Below are positions 7,868 through 9,458 of a stretch of DNA of 64,000 nt, piece by piece (position 1 is the stretch's first letter; every line of letters starts with the position of its first letter). The notes beneath the pieces are model-generated. The model was not told the origin of the DNA, did not search any database, and saw nothing but the letters and a program-made list of their open reading frames with translations. The DNA comes from Trichocoleus sp. (GTDB lineage Bacteria; Cyanobacteriota; Cyanobacteriia; Elainellales; Elainellaceae). Location of the stretch: NCBI GenBank assembly GCA_036702865.1, contig DATNQD010000042.1:124001-188000 (forward strand), written 5' to 3'. The translations under genes were made by a program, and so were the position numbers.

Positions 7868-8059
7868 TTAGCCTTGAATTGCGAATTCACCAGGAGCAGG
7901 GATGTTAACAGTCTCAGGGGCAGCAAGCTCTAACGGATTGGGCTGAAATTCAGTCCCTTTATGAGAGCCGTTACACAGCGGGTAGTTTGCGGAAAGTCCG
8001 CAGGTGCAAAGCCAGTGAGTGCCTGCATCCATTTGTACTGTTAGGGGTGGTTGAGACAT
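7868..8059 (-). CDS. CDGSH iron-sulfur domain protein
   Basis: A 63-residue protein made almost entirely of one CDGSH domain, which holds a redox-active 2Fe-2S cluster with three Cys and one His. Ligands are Cys18, Cys20, Cys29 and His33 in the run CTCGLSANYPLCNGSH. The Asp of the name-giving motif is Asn here, which is seen in other bacterial members. There is no membrane anchor, unlike mitoNEET. Role in the cell unknown, probably redox sensing or cluster transfer. Confidence 0.9.
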   Translation of the reverse strand: MSQPPLTVQMDAGTHWLCTCGLSANYPLCNGSHKGTEFQPNPLELAAPETVNIPAPGEFAIQG

Positions 8060-8345: not shown

Positions 8346-8597
8346 CTACTTATCTGTGGTACGGCGGTGAGCCTCTTCAAAGCGCTCAGTGAGCTTGTTT
8401 CGGGTTTGCTCGCGAGCTTTGTCAAAGCGATCGTTTCCTTTGTCCTTCGTGCTTCGTTGAGCGTCTTCAAAGCGTTCCGTCATTTTGTCTCTCGTGTTTT
8501 CCTGAGCCTCCCGGAATCGTTGATTGGCTGCCAGGGCAGGAACTTGGGTTGCGGCAAGCGTAGCGATTGATAGAACGGCAAGCATGATGCGTTTCAT
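8346..8597 (-). CDS. Small exported protein of four 15-residue repeats
   Basis: An 83-residue protein I do not recognise by family. Residues 1-23 form a Sec signal peptide (MKR, hydrophobic core, then VPALA-A cleavage), so the mature protein is periplasmic or outside. The rest is four tandem repeats, each beginning RF: RFREAQENTRDKMTE, RFEDAQRSTKDKGND, RFDKAREQTRNKLTE and RFEEAHRRTTDK. The pattern is RF-x-x-A-x3-T-x-(D/N)-K. The repeats are highly charged, alternate Lys/Arg with Glu/Asp, and should form an amphipathic helix. A candidate promoter lies at 8664-8691. An overlapping frame at 8249-8470 is a shadow. Confidence 0.75.
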   Translation of the reverse strand: MKRIMLAVLSIATLAATQVPALAANQRFREAQENTRDKMTERFEDAQRSTKDKGNDRFDKAREQTRNKLTERFEEAHRRTTDK

Positions 8598-8663
8598 TGT
8601 GAACTCTCCTAGAAATTTTAGTTTTGTTTTGGAATGTCCTAACTCGTACTTTCCATGTCTATA

Positions 8664-8691
8664 AATATAACATGATTTTGTTTTAATGCAA
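8664..8691 (-). promoter_or_regulatory. Candidate sigma-70-type promoter of the repeat protein
   Basis: Reading the minus strand, TTGCAT (8686-8691) and TATATT (8664-8669) are separated by 16 bases and lie about 70 bases before the ATG at 8597. Both hexamers are close to consensus. Confidence 0.5.
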
Positions 8692-8737
8692 ACTATCTCA
8701 CTAGAAAATTTTTTAAGTGGAGCAAAAAGGTAGAACC

Positions 8738-9226
8738 TTAAAAAACCGCCTGAAATTTCTGCAAGAGAATCCGCAAAAGCTCTAACTCAGCAGGCTCTAA
8801 GCGATCGAAGCGTTCCTTCAAATAAGCGATGTGAACGGGAAAGACTTGCCGGAACAGATCCTCGCCCTCAGGGGTCAACAAAATCGTAAAACAGCGCCGA
8901 TCGCCTTCTGGCACTTCTCGCCGGACTAGACCCTTTGCCTCCAGGCGGTCGATAATTCCAGTTAAAGTTCCCTTCGTCACCAGCGTTTTATCAGCAATTT
9001 CTCCCATCGTCATGCCTGCGGTATTCCCTAAAGTGGCAATGACATCAAACTGGCTAGGCGTTAGCTCTAGATCTCGAATATGGGCTTCAGCATAAGAGGC
9101 ATAGGCTTGATAGGCACGAACCAACGCCCGCATCGCTGGCAGAAAGGATTCGTTAGCAGCAGCGATCGTAGGATCAGAAGATGGATAGTTTGGAGGGGAA
9201 TTGGTTGGCACAGTGTTGTCAGGCAT
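8738..9226 (-). CDS. MarR-family transcriptional regulator
   Basis: A winged-helix regulator of about 162 residues. The MarR core is clear: LELTPSQFDVIATLGNTAGMTMGEIA, then TLVTKGTLTGIIDRLEAKGLV as recognition helix, then the wing REVPEGDRRCFTILLTPEG. MarR proteins usually act as dimeric repressors released by small phenolic or oxidising compounds. The chosen start MPDNTV at 9226 has no strong ribosome site; an upstream start at 9292 is also open, so the N-terminus is uncertain. The glycosyltransferase gene is divergent from it across about 230 bases. Confidence 0.9.
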   Translation of the reverse strand: MPDNTVPTNSPPNYPSSDPTIAAANESFLPAMRALVRAYQAYASYAEAHIRDLELTPSQFDVIATLGNTAGMTMGEIADKTLVTKGTLTGIIDRLEAKGLVRREVPEGDRRCFTILLTPEGEDLFRQVFPVHIAYLKERFDRLEPAELELLRILLQKFQAVF

Positions 9227-9458
9227 TGTCAGAAGGTTGGGGCAACCGCAGATAGTTTGAACACAAATAGTCTCAACTATCATTATGCCCAATTCAGCAA
9301 TCGCGCTTCAGGCAGCATCGCCCTTTTTCGCTTAAAGTCATTGAAGACATGCCATCCGCTCAGCAAAACCAGAAACCCAGCCGAAATGATTTCTACTCGC
9401 AGATTCTAGCCCCCTTTCATGCTTCATCCCTGCCCTCTACTCTCTGCCTCTGCTTCCC

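Follow-up and report, generated by a model that had tools for sequence, protein, structure and literature searches.

Several bacterial systems for peptide secretion resemble parts of the system described here. The tandem Phr propeptides of Bacillota (PMC11343458) are likewise exported by a signal peptide with several peptide copies per propeptide, and the pheromone copies are more conserved than the intervening sequence, as is the case for the array units. They differ in that the pheromones are short (six residues, ERPVGT, in Phr105) and involve extracellular proteases and Rap receptors, and the sections of that account used here do not describe a second route through a C39 exporter. The PatX/PatP system of Nostoc (PMC12756182) is a cyanobacterial example of a Sec-exported small-peptide precursor that is processed outside the cytosol and acts along the filament, where the same target is also antagonised by PatS and HetN, which are produced along a different path. 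Unlike the arrays, PatX as described in the sections used gives a single HRGTGR peptide with HetR as target and has no tandem array, and the array units do not contain HRGTGR. In Synechococcus elongatus, the EbfG1-4 peptides (PMC4997328), which have a role in biofilm formation, are also made from Gly-Gly precursors that are cut and secreted by a C39 transporter, PteB. However, the mature EbfG products are 6-7 kDa in size and without homologues in other cyanobacteria, and matched Sec arrays are not reported in the relevant sections of that paper. Finally, the NHLP or group V bacteriocin clusters (PMC3140520; Wang et al. 2011) contain a C39-ABC transporter, a second ABC transporter, a CAP_ED protein and HlyD, the same operon content as in the precursor locus described below. 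That study, which described the group V cluster type and according to which cyanobacteria have Gly-Gly precursors in their hundreds, finds very little core conservation among the precursors near the clusters; in the sections used it describes neither the units nor matched exported arrays, and the word 'repeat' is absent from its main text.

As far as we found, the parts of the present system are of known kinds and their matched two-route arrangement is undescribed. No description of the arrays was found among the listed matches of searches in the open-licence PMC literature, and the unit strings RRENLDK, ERFEEARQ and DFDQLR were not found there.

The features of the array gene in the window, by which we mean the whole 64,000-nucleotide stretch of DNA analyzed, are given in Table 1. 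The predicted protein begins with a signal-peptide-like sequence (MKRIMLAVLSIATLAATQVPALA), the end of which was placed, here and in the related arrays, by the A-x-A rule of signal peptidase, and the mature 60 residues are occupied entirely by the units. With one unit repeated behind a signal peptide, the gene has the layout of a putative Sec-exported multi-copy propeptide. The sequence-only reading of an exported protein with four RF-x2-A-x3-T-x-(D/N)-K repeats of 15 residues is borne out, as all four units fit the pattern and none of 20,000 composition shuffles reached the best-lag periodicity of the protein (self-matches of 17/45 at lag 15 and 18/30 at lag 30, compared to 0-6 at the remaining lags from 5 to 29). 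The units are very hydrophilic (gravy -2.22 and 52% charged residues for the window protein), and the window copy has lost the leucine that is otherwise conserved at unit position 13. In pairwise comparison they share 33-67% identity in protein and just 49-67% in DNA, which indicates that the pattern was kept through DNA drift and that the repeats are old. The array is not reported by Tandem Repeats Finder.

The earlier end of the feature at 8691 includes the promoter whereas the coding part stops at 8597. This promoter was described as near-consensus, but sites of the same grade are no commoner than expected by chance (three in the 3-kb region, against 1.8 +/- 1.4 in shuffles) and the promoter is therefore plausible by position only. 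Its AT-rich stretch (TTTGCATTAAAACAAAA) recurs upstream of one array in another genome of the collection (G016). A sequence upstream of the MarR-family gene, ATAGTTGAGACTATTTGTGTTCAAACTAT (window 9220-9300), has a similar half, GATAGTTTG, in the array promoter; the MarR-family neighbour may thus control the window array and is a possible candidate regulator.

Table 1. Features of the array gene and its neighbours, numbered as in the window.
Feature	Position	Strand	Description or basis
Array protein CDS	8346..8597	(-)	83 aa plus stop, predicted export
Signal peptide, residues 1-23, ends P-A-L-A ahead of unit 1	8529..8597	(-)	Sequence; register matched in 28/31 related arrays
Unit 1, ANQRFREAQENTRDK	8484..8528	(-)	Sequence, periodicity
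Unit 2, MTERFEDAQRSTKDK	8439..8483	(-)	Sequence, periodicity
Unit 3, GNDRFDKAREQTRNK	8394..8438	(-)	Sequence, periodicity
Unit 4, LTERFEEAHRRTTDK, contains RFEEAH	8349..8393	(-)	Sequence
Ribosome-binding-like GGAGAG	8604..8609	(-)	Sequence
Promoter-like TTTGCA-17-TATATT with TG	8664..8692	(-)	Score 9/12
MarR-family regulator gene, directly upstream, same strand	8738..9226	(-)	Pfam PF12802, 61.2 bits, cut-off 27
Small CDGSH iron-sulfur protein gene, next downstream	7868-8059	(-)	PF09360

No family in Pfam or NCBIfam covers the arrays above its cut-off, only weak rows were obtained from PADLOC and PHROGs, and a PDB sequence search with the array protein returned nothing, in line with the sequence-only reading, which could not name the family. 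GvpQ, DUF2852 and similar weak matches were rejected as their scores are far under the cut-offs. The 95 pattern stretches found in viral contigs include no relative, and the plasmids searched with an array of the FD type (described below) gave no match.

A profile built from thirteen arrays found arrays in 18 of the 36 genomes of the window's family-level group; the repeat is therefore carried by 17 other genomes of this group, and the absence from close relatives that would have spoken against the sequence-only reading is not observed. The genes of the window family contain between one and ten RF-anchored units. In the window's genome (5.93 Mb, 90 contigs), a search with the window protein found, besides the window gene, a full paralogue (contig C86), a relative on contig C17 and a precursor gene on contig C25. 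The relative on C17 (G000, loci L003/L074) is diverged and of the exported type, with the 15-residue spacing still visible and RRFERAHEALLNK as its last unit. When 41 array and precursor loci of the window family were scanned, the hexamer RFEEAH was found only in the window array and in the second array and the Gly-Gly precursor of the same genome. No convincing conserved neighbours of the array genes were found, and these genes are dispersed and unlinked to the precursor locus. The window gene thus appears to be one copy of a dispersed family of putative Sec-exported tandem arrays.

In a sample of the phylum, any match was found in six of 386 genomes, the window's genome counted. One of the others (G263) belongs to a second group, f13, which proved rich in the array and precursor system. 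Candidate named records include Oculatella sp. LEGE 06141 (Oculatellaceae), FACHB-471, FACHB-502, CCP2 and RM1_2_2 for the window's group, and Nodosilinea (Nodosilineaceae), Halomicronema, Leptolyngbya, Tildeniella and Shackletoniella for the second.

The precursor gene on C25, outside the window in the same genome, encodes 72 residues that run from a leader (LSDEELNGVSGG) and a unit (INERFKEAHDAQLNK) through a spacer to another leader (LSDKQLETVEGG) and unit (VSSRFEEAHQEQLDK), so that each of the two double-glycine leaders is followed by exactly one 15-residue unit. The leader passes the bacteriocin-signal model TIGR01847 in two stretches (25.6 bits, cut-off 15.7), while the precursor is under the cut-off of the NHLP leader family TIGR03793 (18.5 against 50.9 bits) and of the CTB family bacteriocins NF038167 (30.2 against 32 bits, with 32.6 bits for the G016 relative), a family that the precursors resemble in the leader half. 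Divergent from the precursor is an operon for a cNMP-binding protein, HlyD, a C39-ABC transporter and a second ABC transporter, whose genes by their scores meet or nearly meet the models for NHLP bacteriocin export. The C39-ABC transporter scores 1123.8 bits with TIGR03796 (cut-off 853.3) and the second ABC transporter 992.6 bits with TIGR03797 (cut-off 709.4); a TIGR03896 match in the operon reaches 256.6 bits (cut-off 161.05), and the HlyD protein, which is short with 200 residues, has 155.8 bits against the 156.2 bits of TIGR03794. No LanM or radical-SAM gene was found among the annotated neighbours of the precursor, which are a part of its neighbours.

Clear homologues of the precursor (profile A2, E below 1e-29) were found in eight of the 36 genomes of the group, each of them beside a similar operon. 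In all eight precursors, three residues separate every Gly-Gly from an RF, which places the unit in register. Across both groups, 20 of 29 loci have precursor and cNMP gene in divergent orientation, with 209-668 nt from start to start; six of the other nine have HlyD but no cNMP match, and three, all short contig pieces, have neither. A protein of about 450 residues with an AAA_35 domain (PF14516) adjoins the RF precursor in five loci (L121, L122, L123, L124 and L127, by clustering, with two of the proteins scanned against Pfam) and is present twice in L124. In other NHLP loci (L243, L250, L257, L258, L259 and L082), the leader-core module is likewise repeated within the precursor, and one protein may carry as many as four or five leaders. 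The cores of these multi-module precursors are of the DGGF, DGGQY or DSGQY kind, and such unrelated cores occur within the window's group too.

Signal-peptide arrays of the matching unit are present in 27 of the 29 genomes that carry a precursor. For the RF type, which is that of the window's group, matching arrays were found in seven of eight precursor genomes. The FD type of group f13 combines precursors with the unit VDFDQLRRENLDKDA and Sec-type arrays of this same unit, with up to 46 matches in one genome, and here arrays occur in 13 of 14 precursor genomes (twelve were read, G456 is counted by a search match with E 4.6e-13, and G461 has none). In seven further f13 genomes the core of the precursor is a different one, RLEHLDNQSKSVKDIQAERLDQLDERTK or a close variant (RL..LD...K type). 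The existence of RL arrays was predicted beforehand from this core, and a core search of twelve genomes found between 8 and 28 matches in every one of the seven; in the loci that were read, all seven genomes have signal peptides that lead into 18-residue units, for example AVDNIQAARLDALDARTK. The pairing therefore recurs with three different units (RF, FD and RL).

The precursors and arrays co-vary between genomes. For the seven paired genomes of the window's group, which are related and not independent (two are of one genus), the own-genome pairing ranks first of 5,040 by mean similarity and second of 5,040 by best match. The similarity of a precursor core is 0.59 to the arrays of its own genome, 0.495 to the precursors of other genomes and 0.474 to the arrays of other genomes, whereas simple ancient paralogy would predict higher values for the other precursors than for the own arrays. 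Co-variation in the window's own genome is weak, as its precursor has mean similarities of 0.46 and 0.51 to the G016 and G026 arrays against 0.45 to its own, although its own arrays rank first in the best-match measure (0.56). The leaders do not track the units, with an identity of 0.68-0.74 between types and 0.70-0.78 within types; the corresponding values for the cores are 0.26-0.37 and 0.53-0.87. In addition, an A-x-A signal-peptidase-type site abuts residue 1 of the first unit exactly in 28 of the 31 readable arrays of the window's group (32 were tried and L016 was not parsed), and the predicted cleavage after Gly-Gly would leave the same first residue of the unit. Many FD arrays are in the same register (AYA, then VDFDQLR) or off by one, while the RL arrays start with about ten extra residues before the units.

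Some filamentous cyanobacteria thus appear to make one peptide in two forms that change together between lineages. We give a probability of about one half to a two-route system in which one lineage-specific peptide would be secreted singly by a C39 transporter and also exported through Sec as multi-copy arrays that share its partner. The precursor, divergent from the cNMP-HlyD-C39/ABC-ABC operon, would be cut after Gly-Gly to free the unit outside the cell. The array genes, often with their own shared promoter, would send many copies of the unit through Sec, and signal peptidase would leave the first residue of the unit as the N-terminus of the array. In the envelope, the arrays may supply or display the peptide in many copies, and they would share with the secreted form a partner or receptor, possibly for filament-to-filament or matrix communication like that of PatX or EbfG. 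No protease or receptor gene was identified. The weak own-genome fit in the window's genome, the lost leucine of the window copy and its lack of the shared promoter element, the differing promoters of arrays and precursors, and the unrelated cores at other NHLP loci of the window's group count against this reading. A further and more tentative step is to see here a peptide language spoken by filamentous cyanobacteria. Every lineage would have a single private peptide, released singly by C39 and stocked or displayed in Sec arrays from many dispersed, co-regulated genes; a lineage that switches peptide would replace both forms together, and the unit would thus serve as a tag of kin or strain.

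A functional coupling would make the system a bacterial counterpart of multi-copy pheromone precursors, with an independent second way of secretion, and mat-forming cyanobacteria could then be tested directly for kin signalling with synthetic peptides of 11 to 18 residues. To our knowledge, very few cyanobacterial Gly-Gly precursors have a known function; the matched Sec arrays indicate which residues matter, the position of the N-terminus, the genes that belong to one system and the strains to compare.

The lineage-matched pairs would also be expected of a toxin and its immunity. Here the secreted peptide would be a bacteriocin and the arrays would be periplasmic, multivalent sponges or decoys that protect kin through homotypic helix binding. 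Bacteriocins are the typical cargo of Gly-Gly leaders and C39 exporters, and the names of the NHLP models point in the same direction. Of the 18 array genomes in the window's group, eleven have no RF-type precursor that scores comparably, and three of these (G002, G013 and G018) also lack an NHLP transporter over the cut-off. Arrays can therefore persist alone, which counts against the two-route system and recalls orphan immunity genes where the precursor is lost or reduced. The modest group-wide association (Fisher p 0.04 for the precursor and likewise for the transporter, in a test that ignores phylogeny) is a further point against the two-route system. The very hydrophilic units are, however, unlike pore formers, the arrays are unlinked to the precursor locus, and many array genes are found per genome where few immunity genes would suffice. 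We regard this reading as rather unlikely.

A similarly low probability is given to an envelope or matrix scaffold, in which arrays and secreted units, both as helices, would together build a sheath or an adhesive layer. The array copy number is high and the candidate named carriers are Leptolyngbya-like or other cyanobacteria of filamentous type. EbfG offers a precedent in biofilm formation (PMC4997328). AlphaFold2 predicts one long helix for the window protein (pLDDT 76, five models 56 to 76; pTM 0.36; alignment of four rows), but short separate helices for an FD array (pLDDT 41; alignment of five rows), and both models are weak evidence. The spacing of the units is not constant either. A distance of 15 residues accounts for 87 of 111 in the window's group, whereas the 41 FD arrays range from 13 to 29 residues, most commonly 15 (120 cases) and 23 (47 cases), and the RL arrays have spacings of 16 and 18. 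In the arrays of the window family, 117 RF-anchored units were counted, and in 35% of them the residue directly ahead of RF is proline. The variable distances (13, 15, 16, 21-23 and more) together with the FD model led us to reject a continuous 15-residue (pentadecad) coiled coil as what the arrays have in common. The amphipathic charged helix proposed for the periplasm in the sequence-only reading is thus weakly supported: the long helix predicted for the window protein agrees with it, while the spacing, the prolines and the FD model do not. Among 251 FD units, the flanks vary far more than the 11-residue core, although part of this contrast is fixed by the search pattern itself. What is conserved is the unit, which also forms the core of the double-glycine precursors, and because the spacing varies, the core is steadier than its flanks and the FD model is not continuous, we take the unit rather than a continuous helix to be what is selected.

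It is less probable still that the two forms have no functional link and that the unit was shared by gene conversion, or because a convenient helical segment was fused repeatedly to two kinds of export signal. The promoters of the arrays differ from those of the precursors, arrays occur without precursors, and the own-genome fit is weak in the window's genome, all of which would suit such an origin. On the other hand, this reading does not account well for a pairing that recurs with three different units, for the co-variation, or for the conserved N-terminal register. Lastly, the protein may be what it was first taken for, a low-complexity, charged helical protein without a specific role. This reading has the charged composition and the lack of a known family in its favour but is now very unlikely, because the R-F and unit pattern is kept family-wide while the DNA diverged, the RL arrays matched the prediction and the precursors are paired and co-vary with their own arrays.

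Returning to the array genes of the two-route system, the FD arrays are preceded by a conserved block, CTCAGnTTTCTCAG, with more YTCAG-like repeats every ~11 bp and then a TATAGAACTCAAG-like box. This CTCAG-repeat block also precedes many arrays of the window's group (e.g. L176 and L194) despite their different units. In 12 of 20 genomes, a degenerate pattern of the block with one mismatch allowed matched at 41 sites, and the reversed pattern matched nowhere; the remaining eight genomes, including the window's, have no such block. Thirty block loci were read, of which 25 lead to an array gene at 118-160 nt, one to an array remnant and four to nothing array-like. The element was not found upstream of the precursor genes. 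The look of the block suggests a putative site for an OmpR/PhoB-type response regulator. The precursors of most genomes of the window's group (L054-L060) share repeated ATCCAACATTT-like boxes upstream, which are missing in the window's genome. Finally, the arrays of one genome (G001; L021, L085 and L089) alternate two kinds of unit, LTDRFxDSYRDNLNK and LSDRHQDxFNxGLYR, of which its precursor has the first kind only.
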